This document shows, piece after piece, positions 10,994-17,305 of a stretch of DNA of 53,362 nt. This stretch comes from Candidatus Saccharimonadota bacterium (GTDB lineage Bacteria > Patescibacteriota > Saccharimonadia > Saccharimonadales > Saccharimonadaceae), in the NCBI GenBank assembly GCA_017556795.1, contig JAFYLZ010000003.1, forward strand, positions 1 through 53,362. The letters are read 5' to 3'. The notes beneath the pieces were generated by a model. It was not told the origin of the DNA and made no database searches. It was given only the letters and a program-made list of their open reading frames with translations. Each line of letters opens with the position of its first letter. The stretch's first letter is position 1. The position numbers and the translations under genes were made by a program.

Positions 10994-11021
10994 AATTATT
11001 TACAAAATATTCGCCCCATGA

Positions 11022-11027
11022 TATAAT
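11022..11027 (+). promoter_or_regulatory. -10 box of the HTH-MurA gene
   Basis: TATAAT (in CATGATATAATTAG) is 7 nt before the ATG at 11035. There is no Shine-Dalgarno sequence, so a leaderless transcript is predicted. Confidence 0.7.
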
Positions 11028-11034
11028 TAGGGGT

Positions 11035-12585
11035 ATGAAAAAAGCCAAAAATTATCAGGAAGTTATTGGCGAGACCATCGAGCAGATGCGTCTTCAAAAA
11101 GGCTGGACGCAAGGCGACCTAGCCGAAGCCGTTGGCTCGTCACAGTCCGCCATTCACCGCATCGAAAAAGGCGGTCAGAATGTTTCTCTTGAAATGATTA
11201 AAAAGCTTTCCGACGCGCTCGGAACGCAAATTCTCTCTATAAATGACTCCGCGTCACAGGGTTTCCGCATTCGCGGCGGCAAGGAATTGTCCGGCGAAAT
11301 CACGATTAATACGTCCAAAAACGCGGCCGTCGGTTTGCTTTGTGCTGCACTTTTGAACCGCGGACGTACTGTTATTCATCGTATCGCACGCATCGAAGAA
11401 GTCTATCGTATTATTGAAGTTTTGGAATCAATTGGCATTAAATGTAACTGGCGCAACCGTCGCCGTGATCTAGAGATTATATCACCGCGTGAATTGAAAC
11501 TTGACGAAATGGATGTCGAGGCAGCTCGCCGCACTCGCTCAATTATTATGTTCCTTGGCCCACTTATGCACCGCTATAAGAACTTTAGCATCCCATATGC
11601 TGGTGGTTGTTCGCTCGGCGTACGCACCGTGGAACCACACCTTCAGGCTCTCGAATCTTTTGGCCTAGAAGTTGACGCTACCAAAAATAGTGGCTTCTAC
11701 GACGTTACCGTTAACCAGAAAAAACTCCGCAGCAACGAAGATCGCTACATTGTTCTTACCGAACGTGGCGACACAGTCACCGAAAACGTTTTGATGGCCG
11801 CCGCACTTTATCCAGGCAAAACCACTATTGTGGGCGCCTCATCTAACTACATGGTACAAGACGTCTGCTTCTTCCTCGAAAAACTCGGCGTTAAAATTAA
11901 CGGCATCGGCACCACCACTTTGACGATTCGTGGTTGCCGCCGCATCGATACCGACGTGGATTACTATCCTTCCGAGGATCCAATCGAGGCCATGTCATTT
12001 ATCGCCGCTGCACTTGTCACGCATTCCGAAATCACCGTGCTCCGCGCACCAATCGAATTCCTCGAAATCGAACTCGAAATTCTCAAGACCATGCATGCCA
12101 AGATCGAACGCTCGCCAGAATACTTGGCGTCAAACGGTCGTACGCGCTTGGTTGATTTATATATCAAAAAAGCTGACCTCGTTGCGCCAATTGATAAAAT
12201 TCACCCAATGCCATTCCCGGGCCTTAATATCGACAACCTGCCGTTCTTCTCGGTGATTGCCGCCGTGGCCGAAGGCCGTACCCTGATTCACGACTGGGTA
12301 TTTGAAAACCGCGCCGTTTATACTACGGAGCTTTCAAATCTCAACGCCAAAGTTGAGCTTCTCGATGCTCACCGCGTGTTCGTCGAAGGTCCAACCAACT
12401 GGCGCGCCGCCGAATTGGTGGCCCCACAGGCCCTCCGCCCATCCGTCGTGGTGCTCATTGGCATGCTCGCTGCGCCAGGCACCTCAATTCTGCGTAACGT
12501 CTACTCGATTCAACGTGGCTACCAAGACTTCCCAGATCGTTTGCGCCATCTCGGTGCCGACATCTCCCCACTCACGGGTATTTAA
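11035..12585 (+). CDS. HTH domain fused to UDP-GlcNAc 1-carboxyvinyltransferase (MurA-like)
   Basis: Residues about 8-65 form an XRE/Cro-type helix-turn-helix (QGDLAEAVGSSQSAIHRIEK). Residues about 75-516 form an EPSP-synthase/MurA fold. MurA transfers enolpyruvate from PEP to UDP-N-acetylglucosamine, the first committed step of peptidoglycan synthesis. Key positions are visible: the Lys-Asn pair in NTSKNAAVG (95-96) and the catalytic-loop cysteine Cys192 in PYAGGCSLGVRTVEPH. The DNA-binding domain on a cell-wall enzyme suggests self-regulation or moonlighting, which is inference. There is no frameshift between the halves. The start is fixed by the adjacent -10 box. Confidence 0.9.
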   Translation: MKKAKNYQEVIGETIEQMRLQKGWTQGDLAEAVGSSQSAIHRIEKGGQNVSLEMIKKLSDALGTQILSINDSASQGFRIRGGKELSGEITINTSKNAAVGLLCAALLNRGRTVIHRIARIEEVYRIIEVLESIGIKCNWRNRRRDLEIISPRELKLDEMDVEAARRTRSIIMFLGPLMHRYKNFSIPYAGGCSLGVRTVEPHLQALESFGLEVDATKNSGFYDVTVNQKKLRSNEDRYIVLTERGDTVTENVLMAAALYPGKTTIVGASSNYMVQDVCFFLEKLGVKINGIGTTTLTIRGCRRIDTDVDYYPSEDPIEAMSFIAAALVTHSEITVLRAPIEFLEIELEILKTMHAKIERSPEYLASNGRTRLVDLYIKKADLVAPIDKIHPMPFPGLNIDNLPFFSVIAAVAEGRTLIHDWVFENRAVYTTELSNLNAKVELLDAHRVFVEGPTNWRAAELVAPQALRPSVVVLIGMLAAPGTSILRNVYSIQRGYQDFPDRLRHLGADISPLTGI

Positions 12586-12611
12586 CTTGTGGAAAACTTG
12601 TGAAATAAAAG

Positions 12612-12637
12612 TGCAAATTTTATTTGCATTTTTATTT
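12612..12637 (+). terminator. AT-rich terminator-like hairpin
   Basis: TGCAAAT (12612-12618), loop TTT, then ATTTGCA (12622-12628), followed by TTTTTATTTT. It is 27 nt after the MurA-like gene. The stem is weak in GC but followed by a good T tract. Confidence 0.6.
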
Positions 12638-12686
12638 TGCTTATGTTATTATCAGATTACAAAAGGTCATATTAACAAAAATTAGT

Positions 12687-12742: not shown

Positions 12743-15700
12743 ATGTCTTTTAGGAATATAAAAAAGATGAAATATTTGGCACTTTTTGTTGCCGTTTTAG
12801 CAGTTGGGGCAATTAGCTCCGGTGATGCCAACGCCGCATCAACCTTCGACACCTATACCGATGGTGATGGTGTAGTGTGGGATAGGGAAACCACGGACGA
12901 TGGCGATATTTATATTGGCATTCAGTCAGTACCAAGCGGTGTTACTACGGTGACCGTACCTGCCATTGGCGATGTTGCCTCTGGTGAAGATACTTACTTC
13001 CTAGACGCTGTTTGTTCTCGTATTACAGACTGTAGCGGTGTGATCTCCGACACTGCTGCTGTGACCGTCCTCGATATGACCAACGCTTCTAAAATTCAAA
13101 TTCGTAATGTCTCCCAAATGTTTAACGCTAACCACGAAGTTGAATTGATCTTTGGTGAAAATGTAGTGATTGCTGACCCATCTTACATTGATTGGTCTGC
13201 ATACCACAACTGGGGTAACGCCTATGCCGGCGTCGACAATAATCCGTTTGGCAACTTGGGTGCCTTTGCGGGTATGCGAGTCAACCTCACGAATCTTGGC
13301 AACGTTAAATACATTGGTTGGAATGCCTTCAAGAATGCCACGCTTAACGCTGGCGATACAGATGTCATCATTAATAGCAACCAAACCGTTGGCGGTTACG
13401 TCTTTGCTGGCACAAACATCACGAGCCTTTCTTTTGACGCTGGCGAAATGGGCCAGGGCTTCGCAAAGGATTGTAGTAGTTTGACTAGCTTAACGATTGG
13501 CGACAATGTCACGAGGATCAATGGTTATGCATTTGCGAACGATGCCAACCTAGAACAAAACTTCAATACGAATAATATTACTGGTATTTATACCTATGCA
13601 TTTAGAAACTCCGGCATTACTGGTGTAACATTTGGTGACGCCATCACGACTATCGAGGCGTACGCCTTTAGCGGCACCGACCTTGGAGACGTAAGTTTTG
13701 CTAATACTAACGTAGAATACATTGAACCATTCGCCTTCAAAGATGCTGGCATAACTTCCTTGGATCTTGGCGATGTTATATGGATTGGCAACCAAGGTTT
13801 CGCCGATAACTTAATGACCGAAATTTATCTTCCAAAATCAATGCGTTTTGCAGTACCGGCGGACGGCGGTGGATACAAGAACGCGGTCTCGGTGTTCGAA
13901 CATGCTCCATTGAAAAAACTCACAATTGCTTGCGATTTGTCCGTCACGAGCATGCCGCAGGCTGGTAGAAACGAGGATAGCATTAGAAATGTCATAACCT
14001 TGAATGATGCCTCCACGTGGGATTCCATTGAAGAAATCGTAGTGCTTGCTCCATATGGTGAAAACGAAAGCCCGGCCGCAGATCACGACTACACGTCAGT
14101 TGGCACAGTGGACTCTGGTAGCAATATCCCGAACAGCATATTGAATAGCTCAAAAAACGTTATCCCAAGATCAATGTTTGCTGAGATCTCATGGACAACG
14201 AAGAAAGCAAAAAGGCTAATCCTTGACGACAGATTCGAGATTATTGGTACGCTCGCATTTAACAATCTTCATATTAGCGAGTTGCGCACAATAGATGCTG
14301 ATGGCAACATTAGCGAAGACATGCGCTTGCCTTCCAGTCTTAAGGCGTTAGGTTCTCATGCTTTTGTTTACTCTTTCGAATACAGGAGCGACATGAATCA
14401 GCCAGTAGTCGAGATTAGTTCTCTCCCAGAAACGCTAGAGTTCATTGGTAACTACGCCTTCCTGCGTAATGAAGAGTTAGTAATCGATTCATTCGACATT
14501 CCGAACCTGGAATACTTGGGGGGCTATGCGTTTTATGACACGAACGTAAAAAACATCACTTTGCATGCGGCCCCAAATACAGAAGACTCCCTGTTTAAAG
14601 GCAGCCTCATGGTTGAAAGCATCACCATTGACTACGATTTTTACGGCAACAGCCAAAGTGGTCTCGCCAATCTTATCTGCCCAAACAGCGTTAAAGATCA
14701 CTGTGATGTTAAGGCTGGCACTGGGCAGCTACACAATACTGGCACAAATCACCTTAGCAAAATTACCTTCACCGATAAAGCTACTACCGAGCCAAATGGC
14801 ACACCTTTCCAATTCCAAGGACTCTACGTTGACGAAGTGGATCTTAGCGCAACGCCGTGGAAAAGGTTTTATGGCACCCCAGCTATATTTATAGGCATGA
14901 AAGCTCAGACGCTCAAACTCCCACATGCTCTCGAGTCAATTGGTGCGTATATGTTCTGCGGTGTCGAAGTTACTAATCCGGTAGAACTCCCGAATACCCT
15001 GAAAGAAATCGGGGACGGCGCTTTTATGGCTAAATATCTAGCGGCTGGACCAACTTATCCAGATTTGGAGTTTAACGCTGGTATTAATATCACCTCACTC
15101 CCGGAATCTATCGAAAAAATTGGCAACGTCGCATTTTATGAAAACGAGCTACTCACTGCAGACGTGAATCTGCCAAACCTTACCGAACTTGGCTACTCCG
15201 CCTTCCAAGGCACCAACGTGCGCGATGTAACGCTTAATGACGGCATCACTAAACTTGGCTACAATGTCTTCTACGATACGCCAAGCCTCCGCAACGTTAC
15301 CATAGACATGGATATCTATGACGAAAACATAACTCGTATATATGATGGCTACGAAGGCTGCTATCAGCAAAGTGGTGAGGCATGTAGTGGCACTGCGGCC
15401 GAGCAGAAAGCACAGCACGACGCTAACTACTACGACTCCTTCGTCGCCACCTTCGGCACTCCAGACCATGAATATGGCACCATTACCTTTACGGAAAATG
15501 CCGGTGAGCCATGCGAAGGCCACTACAACTGCTCCAAGGATCGCGCATACTTCTACGGTCTTAAAGCAGACAAAGTAGATCTTTCTGCCACAAACTGGCA
15601 ATCCACTGGTGAATCTATGTTCCAAGAATCAGAGATTGGTGAACTCATCCTCCCATCCGACCTCAAGAACTTAAATGAGGACGTCTTCTATGAAGCAGAA

Positions 15701-17305
15701 CTTGGTGATGTTTCCATCCCAACCACTCTCGTAGCTATTCAGCCAGAAGCCTTCCAATGGGCTACTGCCAATATTGATGGTCTACCAGAAGGCCTTGGTT
15801 ACATTGGCCGATCCGCTTTCTATGGCACAGATGTCACGGATAACCTCGTTATTCCAAGCACCGTAGGCCAGATTGGCGCAGATGCCTTCAATGCCGGTGA
15901 TGAAGACGTGCACTACGATACTATCACCATCAAACCATCCTTCTCATCGAGCGGTAGTTCAAGTGGTAAACTCATCTTCCAGCTCTTCTGGGGTGCCGAT
16001 GTGGATAAAATGATTATTACCTCCATGAGTCTCCCAGCCTCTACCATAACCGTCCCAGAAGGCCAAGACAAACCAGAATTCTATGGCATGCCAATGGACG
16101 AAGTGGTTATTACGAATCTATATACGATTACCGAAAAAGCCTTCCAAGATTGTACTAATCTCCAGAAGGTTGATATGAGTAGCGATGCTAACCTCCGCGT
16201 CATCTATGACAAAGCCTTTGTGGGCGACAGCAAACTAGACACCATCATGTTCTCGCCAGCTCTCAAAGATGAGATCGTCATAATTGGCCAGTACGCCTTT
16301 GAAGGCACCGCCTTTAAGACCATGGGCGACAACACCAAACAATTCGACCTCACCGCAGCTAAGTTTAACGCTACAGACGGCTTCGCCTTCTCTAAGATGC
16401 CACTGCTTGAAACAGTTGATGTTCCAGCAACCTTTAGCAATCTCACGGTTCCAGAAGCTACCTTTGCTAATGATCCAGAACTAAGACTCGTTACCATCGA
16501 TTATCACCTAGACACTATCGATAACGCAGCCTTCTCTAACGATAACAAACTCGAGTCCATCTTTATTTGGGGCGATACAGAGATTCTAGATGAAAACCTT
16601 GCTGGCCGTGGTGGTGATGCAGTTGGCCCAGAATATGGCCCAACCATCCCAGAACCAACAGACATCTATGCCTACTCTACCTCCCGTGCAGAAGAATATG
16701 CAGCTCTCCCGGTTCGTGGTACCTTTGAAGGTGACTTCTACCCACTAGATGAGGTCCTCTACCTCACCTCCAACAAGCCAACCGTACTTCTCAACGATGA
16801 CGAAACCGATTTCGATAAATCCGACCTCGTCGTCTACGCAATGCGCCGTGATGGTATCATCCTCGAGTCCGACGAATGGTCCACCTACGATGGCAACGCC
16901 TATCCACGCAGCACCTCTTCCGTTGACTTCGAACACATGGCTGAGAAGATTCAAGAAGATCCAGTCTTTGGTTCTATCCACGATACTCCAGTTCCAATGA
17001 ACGAACTCGATGTCACTACTAACGTGAACTTCGAGAATATCGACTTCGCCCTCGTTCCAACCGAAGAGAATCCAAATGTGAAGAAGGTTACCCTCCTCTA
17101 CAACGATAAGTACACAGACAACCTAGCCGATACGGACATCCTTCCATACCAAGAAAAGGAAGATGACGACGAAGAGCCAGCTGTCCCGGATACTGGTGTC
17201 GCCAAAGCTATGGCCACCTTTACCAAGGCCGCTCTCCCAATCGTAGCGATTGTCTCCTTCTCGCTCCTCGGTGGCGTGATCGTCTTCAAGAAACGCAAAA
17301 ACTAA
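12743..17305 (+). CDS. Giant BspA-like leucine-rich-repeat surface protein with sortase-like tail
   Basis: The 1520-aa product starts with a signal peptide (KYLALFVAVLAVGAISSGDANA). It continues with many LRR_5/BspA-type repeats (pattern LP-x-L-x-x-IG-x-x-AF, for example SLPETLEFIGNYAFL, LPNTLKEIGDGAFM) to about residue 1320, then a more acidic region. It ends in VPDTG, a hydrophobic helix (LPIVAIVSFSLLGGVIVF) and KKRKN, the layout of an LPXTG cell-wall sorting signal. BspA-type LRR proteins of other bacteria mediate adhesion, so an adhesin for host cells or the host bacterium is plausible. The Shine-Dalgarno GGGAG precedes the ATG, and an intrinsic terminator follows. Confidence 0.93.
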   Translation: MSFRNIKKMKYLALFVAVLAVGAISSGDANAASTFDTYTDGDGVVWDRETTDDGDIYIGIQSVPSGVTTVTVPAIGDVASGEDTYFLDAVCSRITDCSGVISDTAAVTVLDMTNASKIQIRNVSQMFNANHEVELIFGENVVIADPSYIDWSAYHNWGNAYAGVDNNPFGNLGAFAGMRVNLTNLGNVKYIGWNAFKNATLNAGDTDVIINSNQTVGGYVFAGTNITSLSFDAGEMGQGFAKDCSSLTSLTIGDNVTRINGYAFANDANLEQNFNTNNITGIYTYAFRNSGITGVTFGDAITTIEAYAFSGTDLGDVSFANTNVEYIEPFAFKDAGITSLDLGDVIWIGNQGFADNLMTEIYLPKSMRFAVPADGGGYKNAVSVFEHAPLKKLTIACDLSVTSMPQAGRNEDSIRNVITLNDASTWDSIEEIVVLAPYGENESPAADHDYTSVGTVDSGSNIPNSILNSSKNVIPRSMFAEISWTTKKAKRLILDDRFEIIGTLAFNNLHISELRTIDADGNISEDMRLPSSLKALGSHAFVYSFEYRSDMNQPVVEISSLPETLEFIGNYAFLRNEELVIDSFDIPNLEYLGGYAFYDTNVKNITLHAAPNTEDSLFKGSLMVESITIDYDFYGNSQSGLANLICPNSVKDHCDVKAGTGQLHNTGTNHLSKITFTDKATTEPNGTPFQFQGLYVDEVDLSATPWKRFYGTPAIFIGMKAQTLKLPHALESIGAYMFCGVEVTNPVELPNTLKEIGDGAFMAKYLAAGPTYPDLEFNAGINITSLPESIEKIGNVAFYENELLTADVNLPNLTELGYSAFQGTNVRDVTLNDGITKLGYNVFYDTPSLRNVTIDMDIYDENITRIYDGYEGCYQQSGEACSGTAAEQKAQHDANYYDSFVATFGTPDHEYGTITFTENAGEPCEGHYNCSKDRAYFYGLKADKVDLSATNWQSTGESMFQESEIGELILPSDLKNLNEDVFYEAELGDVSIPTTLVAIQPEAFQWATANIDGLPEGLGYIGRSAFYGTDVTDNLVIPSTVGQIGADAFNAGDEDVHYDTITIKPSFSSSGSSSGKLIFQLFWGADVDKMIITSMSLPASTITVPEGQDKPEFYGMPMDEVVITNLYTITEKAFQDCTNLQKVDMSSDANLRVIYDKAFVGDSKLDTIMFSPALKDEIVIIGQYAFEGTAFKTMGDNTKQFDLTAAKFNATDGFAFSKMPLLETVDVPATFSNLTVPEATFANDPELRLVTIDYHLDTIDNAAFSNDNKLESIFIWGDTEILDENLAGRGGDAVGPEYGPTIPEPTDIYAYSTSRAEEYAALPVRGTFEGDFYPLDEVLYLTSNKPTVLLNDDETDFDKSDLVVYAMRRDGIILESDEWSTYDGNAYPRSTSSVDFEHMAEKIQEDPVFGSIHDTPVPMNELDVTTNVNFENIDFALVPTEENPNVKKVTLLYNDKYTDNLADTDILPYQEKEDDDEEPAVPDTGVAKAMATFTKAALPIVAIVSFSLLGGVIVFKKRKN

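Follow-up and report, generated by a model that had tools for sequence, protein, structure and literature searches.

A MurA fused to a helix-turn-helix domain, with candidate operators at its own gene, points to an autoregulated cell-wall enzyme in Saccharibacteria

What does a cell-wall enzyme do with a DNA-binding domain of its own? The question is raised by one gene in a stretch of 53,362 nucleotides (the window) from a Nanosyncoccus-like Candidatus Saccharibacteria genome of 674 kb that is 97% complete. The gene (11035..12585, + strand) encodes a protein of 516 amino acids, here called HTH-MurA. A sequence-only reading had described it as an XRE-type domain in frame on a full-length EPSP/MurA fold, and had suggested either an enzyme that senses its substrate and regulates genes, perhaps its own, or a carboxyvinyltransferase recruited as a sensor. 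Our comparative sequence analysis favors the first of these: we propose that HTH-MurA is a working MurA and also a repressor of its own gene, a reading to which we assign a probability of about 0.8.

The ORF, Pfam searches and a structural model all confirmed the fusion. An XRE/Cro-C1-type helix-turn-helix (HTH) domain, delimited by Pfam HTH_3 and the model helices, spans residues 11-66 (11065..11232, + strand); the HTH_3 match covers residues 15-66 (E=3e-15, 56.4 bits vs a cut-off of 23) and is the only one above cut-off in the genome. The AlphaFold model, built with 79 sequences, has a mean pLDDT of 91 and places the four HTH helices at residues 7-22, 26-33, 37-44 and 52-62, the third of which is the recognition helix (11143-11166, + strand). 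A short, flexible and poorly conserved interdomain linker at residues 67-75 (11233..11259, + strand), with pLDDT below 50 at residues 68-73, leads into the MurA (UDP-GlcNAc enolpyruvyl transferase) domain at residues 76-512 (11260..12570, + strand). Here the EPSP_synthase profile (PF00275) matches residues 80-503 over its full length (positions 2-417 of 417, E=3e-47), and the modelled MurA fold superimposes on solved MurA structures, with a TM-score on target of 0.93 to 5u4h and a Foldseek E-value of about 1e-39. The protein scores above the cut-off of the NCBIfam MurA subfamily NF006873 (321 vs 297 bits) and below that of the stricter murA equivalog TIGR01072 (297 vs 392.7 bits), which is a curated threshold and does not define function. 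Directly 3′ of murA, the window encodes a predicted 1520-aa surface protein with repeats (12743-17305), whose hydrophobic C-terminal end is probably membrane-anchoring; a terminator-like hairpin (12600-12640) lies between the two genes.

The enzyme half appears fully equipped for catalysis. The catalytic Lys-Asn and Cys that had been reported from the sequence are all present as Lys95 and Asn96 (11317-11322) and Cys192 (11608-11610), together with the active-site residues Arg168, Arg197, Asp400 (12232-12234), Arg426, Arg468 and Arg494 (12514-12516). None of these nine residues varies among 150 fused homologues, and they align, in order, to K22, N23, R91, C115, R120, D305, R331, R371 and R397 of E. 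coli MurA; the E. coli sequence used has the expected 419 residues and carries the expected amino acids at the key positions. A search for a second, unfused murA found none: HTH-MurA is the sole PF00275 match, and hence the only EPSP/MurA-family gene, in the genome. The genome also encodes murB, as identified by Pfam search. Because all catalytic residues are kept and MurB is present, this sequence is by far most simply read as that of an active MurA, and UDP-GlcNAc enolpyruvyl transfer by HTH-MurA is likely since it is the only MurA copy. For the same reasons, the proposal of a carboxyvinyltransferase recruited as a sensor in place of an enzyme is disfavored.

The fusion is real and widespread in Saccharibacteria. 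Of 60 relatives in the order, 58 have a match, which in nearly all cases is fused, full-length and in a single frame, arguing against an assembly artefact; database relatives carry the name Ca. Saccharibacteria and include Ca. Nanosyncoccus alces at 84% identity. In the wider phylum, the fusion occurs in some families and is lacking in close relatives at 44-58% identity, and most other members have an ordinary MurA at about 30-38% identity. A quick tree of 86 rows required five changes between the fused and unfused states, three of them forced by well-supported branches, with fused and unfused neighbours side by side (fused L056 by unfused L142; fused L057 by unfused L147), a pattern compatible with one gain and several losses. 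One genome (G067; L165, L374) has two MurA-type genes, one ordinary and one fused (L165), the latter with a degenerate recognition helix.

Conservation of the HTH domain argues that it is in use. Outside the genus, the mean column entropy of the HTH (1.18 bits) equals that of the MurA domain (1.18 bits), and the linker, at 2.18 bits, is the least conserved stretch of the protein. Residues Q37, R42, E44, G46, Q48 and N49 are invariant both within the genus and outside it, and outside the genus T25, A30 and S38 likewise show no variation. The recognition helix as a whole, including S38/A39, is nearly invariant, so that a helix degenerate in all orthologues, the finding that the sequence-only reading had named as refuting it, is not what we observed. 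When the domain is aligned with the 434 repressor, the base-contacting positions 27, 28, 29 and 33 of that repressor would correspond to S36, Q37, S38 and R42.

A candidate operator for this domain was found at the murA promoter. The gene is preceded by a σ70-type promoter (10999..11027, + strand) consisting of TTTACA (10999-11004), a 17-bp spacer and an extended -10 element, TGATATAAT (TATAAT at 11022-11027); it has 11 of 12 consensus matches in a promoter scan and a TG ahead of the -10 box. Because the -10 box ends 7 nt before the ATG, the murA mRNA is probably leaderless. The candidate operator O1, TATTCGCCCCATGATATAAT (11008..11027, + strand), conforms to the genus consensus and overlaps the -35/-10 spacer and the -10 box. 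Of 98 genus-level loci, 96 have this consensus, TATKCRYNNNRTGATATAAT, ahead of murA; in one of the two exceptions (G005; L020, L221) the motif precedes a galU-like gene just upstream of murA, where it seems to control a two-gene unit of galU-like gene and murA. In the genus motif the right arm doubles as an extended -10 (TGNTATAAT) and is not mirrored by the left arm, two points that weigh against an operator. A CCCC-N12-GGGG arrangement flanking the -10 box in the window was also considered as an operator and rejected, its sequence not being conserved.

In other families, the place of O1 is taken by the palindrome TATAYC-N6-GRTATA, a perfect copy of which lies within 150 nt upstream of 29 of 53 fused genes outside the genus, compared to 0.1% of shuffled sequences. 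Allowing one mismatch raised the count to 37 of 53 (0.6% in shuffles), and none of 20 unfused orthologues had a copy in the same interval at up to two mismatches. A check that used no consensus gave eight or nine of nine symmetric pairs in 19 of 53 fused upstream regions vs 3.4% in shuffles. Several genomes of one family (f44; L161-L168) carry two or more operator-like palindromes upstream of murA, a pattern that suggests cooperative or looped binding.

The operator tracks the HTH domain. Among 64 homologues whose HTH is intact, 63 have an operator in either form with up to two mismatches, vs none of 21 in which the HTH is absent or degenerate, with the consensus derived from the same sequences and a two-mismatch site expected in about 8% of shuffled upstream regions. 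The sole intact-HTH homologue that escaped the match (L057) has a symmetric variant, CATAGCATATATGCTATA. Variation in the HTH follows the same line: S36T occurs in three proteins from two lineages (L053, L057 and L058), the same proteins whose operator arm is TATAGC/GCTATA, and the degenerate HTH of L165 (GIDTSLLTEIE vs GTSQSAINRIE) is accompanied by no operator at its gene. HTH losses are few, with about four changes and three independent pairs on the quick tree (sign test not significant), a number with which a phylogenetically corrected test cannot reach significance. Six genus loci (L029, L093, L099, L103, L133 and L136) keep the operator upstream of a separate -10 box, indicating that the operator is not just a promoter element.

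A scan of the genome for its own motif revealed a second candidate operator, O2, inside murA. This site, AATTCACGCGGTGATATAAT when read on the - strand (11476..11495), lies antisense in codons 148-154 (IISPREL) and has one mismatch to the O1 consensus. A site with no more than one mismatch is present in 97 of 98 genus-level loci, and the distance between the centres of O1 and O2 is 467-468 bp in 79 of 96 genus loci (about 467 bp in the window). The codons read ATT ATA TCA CCN CGY GAA TTR across the genus: codon 149 is ATA in 93 of 97 sequences, though ATA makes up only about 12% of Ile codons, every Ser at codon 150 is TCA, codon 153 is almost only GAA, and Leu at codon 154 occurs only as TTR. 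O2 is the top seven-codon window of murA for synonymous conservation (z=7.0), and the peak persists in a thinned set of 77 sequences that share less than 82% identity. Because it is the synonymous codons that are conserved, the comparison indicates that selection acts here on the DNA. No consistent intragenic operator was found outside the genus, except for one site near nt 443 in L041 and L189, the latter assigned to the genus by search yet just below the 69% identity line used for it. A second, weaker peak of synonymous conservation in the genus (z about 4.6) covers the end of the HTH and the linker (residues 63-77, 11221-11265); its consensus, CAaATtCTcTCTaTnAAtGA, does not match the operator.

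The main rival for O2 is that it serves as an antisense promoter under HTH-MurA control and not as an auxiliary repressor site, a reading confined to O2 and compatible with autorepression at O1. We regard it as rather unlikely, although O2 contains TGATATAAT on the - strand and an extended -10 is part of every genus operator. The constraint extends to the left arm (AATTC), as shown by codons 153 and 154, and the promoter scan, whose criteria require a -35 element, listed no promoter at O2. Taken with the operator on the murA promoter and its co-occurrence with the HTH, O2 lends strong comparative support to the suggestion that HTH-MurA regulates genes, perhaps its own.

Sites elsewhere in the genomes bear on how specific this regulation would be. 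In at least nine genomes of the genus, the motif lies 26 nt from the ATG of a tsaD-like gene (loci L207, L232, L277, L283, L285, L293, L296, L300, L304 and L322); it also lies before def in L278, L284, L294 and L323, and in single cases before typA (L298) and a MurF-like ligase. From these positions tsaD, def and typA are possible further targets of HTH-MurA; the names tsaD, def, typA, glyA and galU were read from protein sequences, and that of murB was confirmed by Pfam. In the other genera of the same family, the palindrome has nearly a single target, with intergenic copies almost all at murA, often in a region shared with a divergent glyA. One genome (G217; L306 / L349) has a perfect palindrome over the murB promoter, with no mismatches and 27 nt from the ATG, a single case that was noticed post hoc. 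A general role of murB as a target was rejected, the operator being absent from about 20 other readable murB starts. A large regulon drawn from genome-wide matches was likewise rejected, as many non-promoter matches are coding coincidences, such as pairs exactly 180 bp apart in an RNA-methyltransferase-like gene (...YSLYDII...) and matches in a murD-like gene. In L324, the genus motif stands at position 523, directly before a putative RNase P RNA start (aaaagaggaaagtccgggca).

The motif precedes tsaD, def and typA at the same distance of 26-27 nt in several genus genomes, and a few further genes in some, so that part of it could represent a special promoter class, in which RNA polymerase or another factor recognizes an extended -10 together with a conserved spacer element, while the HTH acts otherwise or elsewhere. 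That the right arm, TGATATAAT, is itself an extended -10 fits this explanation, which we nevertheless consider improbable. In genus genomes TGATATAAT is common and the TATKCRY arm is rare; in G001, about 6 of 45 TGATATAAT sites have the arm, half of those within coding sequence, so most such sites do without it. In addition, the operator persists where the -10 box has moved, O2 is antisense and inside a gene, the motif outside the genus forms a symmetric palindrome not seen where the HTH is lacking, and no other HTH_3 protein above cut-off is encoded in the genome.

We therefore return to autorepression and propose the following mechanism. The HTH domains would hold an HTH-MurA dimer together, and this dimer would bind O1, covering the -10 box of murA and excluding RNA polymerase. 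The promoter would become free whenever MurA runs low or adopts a state unable to bind DNA, and the net effect would be a built-in negative feedback of MurA on its own level. In the genus, O2 would strengthen repression, most simply by letting two bound dimers loop the DNA or by acting as a roadblock. The sign of regulation is not readable from sequence, and a few extra sites exist, as might be expected if HTH-MurA were an activator or a device tethering MurA near the chromosome; we judge this very improbable, given that O1 lies over the -10 box, a position at which a bound protein normally keeps polymerase out, and that the near single-target pattern argues against general DNA tethering. That an ordinary MurA keeps the HTH as a passive relic, or as a module for folding or dimerisation, is hardly credible: close HTH-less orthologues exist and are presumably active, but the HTH is as conserved as the enzyme, its recognition-helix residues are invariant, and orthologues that lack the HTH also lack the operator.

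A more tentative extension of autorepression is that it is gated by metabolites. On binding UDP-GlcNAc, MurA adopts a closed form, and the N-terminus of the enzyme is located close to the hinge between its domains, making a coupling between ligand state and DNA binding plausible. Substrate sensing, as put forward in the sequence-only reading, is in this sense possible. Occupancy by UDP-GlcNAc or PEP, an effect of product, or a covalent or closed state could then decide whether the HTH dimer binds and whether O1 and O2 are looped. If so, flux through the first cell-wall step would directly set how strongly murA is transcribed, and in some lineages murB or other genes as well. That MurA is usually monomeric counts against the dimer on which autorepression as proposed here depends.

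MurA, the target of fosfomycin, catalyses the first committed step in building the cell wall, and its best-known controls act at the protein level. HTH-MurA resembles E. coli MurA (1UAE) in its whole fold, in its catalytic Cys, Lys-Asn, Asp and Arg residues and in the Cys targeted by fosfomycin, and differs from it in the N-terminal XRE HTH and linker, in an identity of about 29% and in falling below the strict murA equivalog cut-off. Like HTH-MurA, Cro/C1-family XRE repressors of the lambda/434 type combine an HTH_3 domain with a palindromic operator over the -10 box and expected autorepression, but they carry a small dimerisation or protease domain where HTH-MurA carries an enzyme. BirA has an N-terminal HTH, and the DNA-binding fold of PutA differs from the HTH of HTH-MurA.

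Known control of MurA, as the first committed step, involves PrkA/ReoM-ClpCP in Firmicutes and CwlM in mycobacteria (PMC7286690, PMC12723410). These systems act on the protein, by proteolysis or activation, whereas control by HTH-MurA would be transcriptional and built into the enzyme. We found no description of an HTH-MurA fusion in the open-access literature. A tiny host-dependent bacterium whose genome is very reduced appears to carry a regulator built into an enzyme, with operators on and in the enzyme's own gene. This single gene offers a concrete system in which to test how transcription is controlled in Patescibacteria, a little-known subject. The principle has precedents in BirA, the biotin ligase and bio repressor, a biosynthetic enzyme that doubles as the repressor of a biosynthetic promoter, and in PutA, the proline dehydrogenase and put repressor, and other trigger enzymes, in which a metabolic enzyme is also a direct repressor (PMC6978683). 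HTH-MurA and BirA are alike in outline, although the enzymes are unrelated and HTH-MurA, unlike BirA, would target mainly its own gene; PutA is a catabolic enzyme, whereas HTH-MurA serves cell-wall precursor synthesis. On the comparative evidence presented here, HTH-MurA would add MurA as a new enzyme class to the enzyme-repressor principle known from BirA and PutA.
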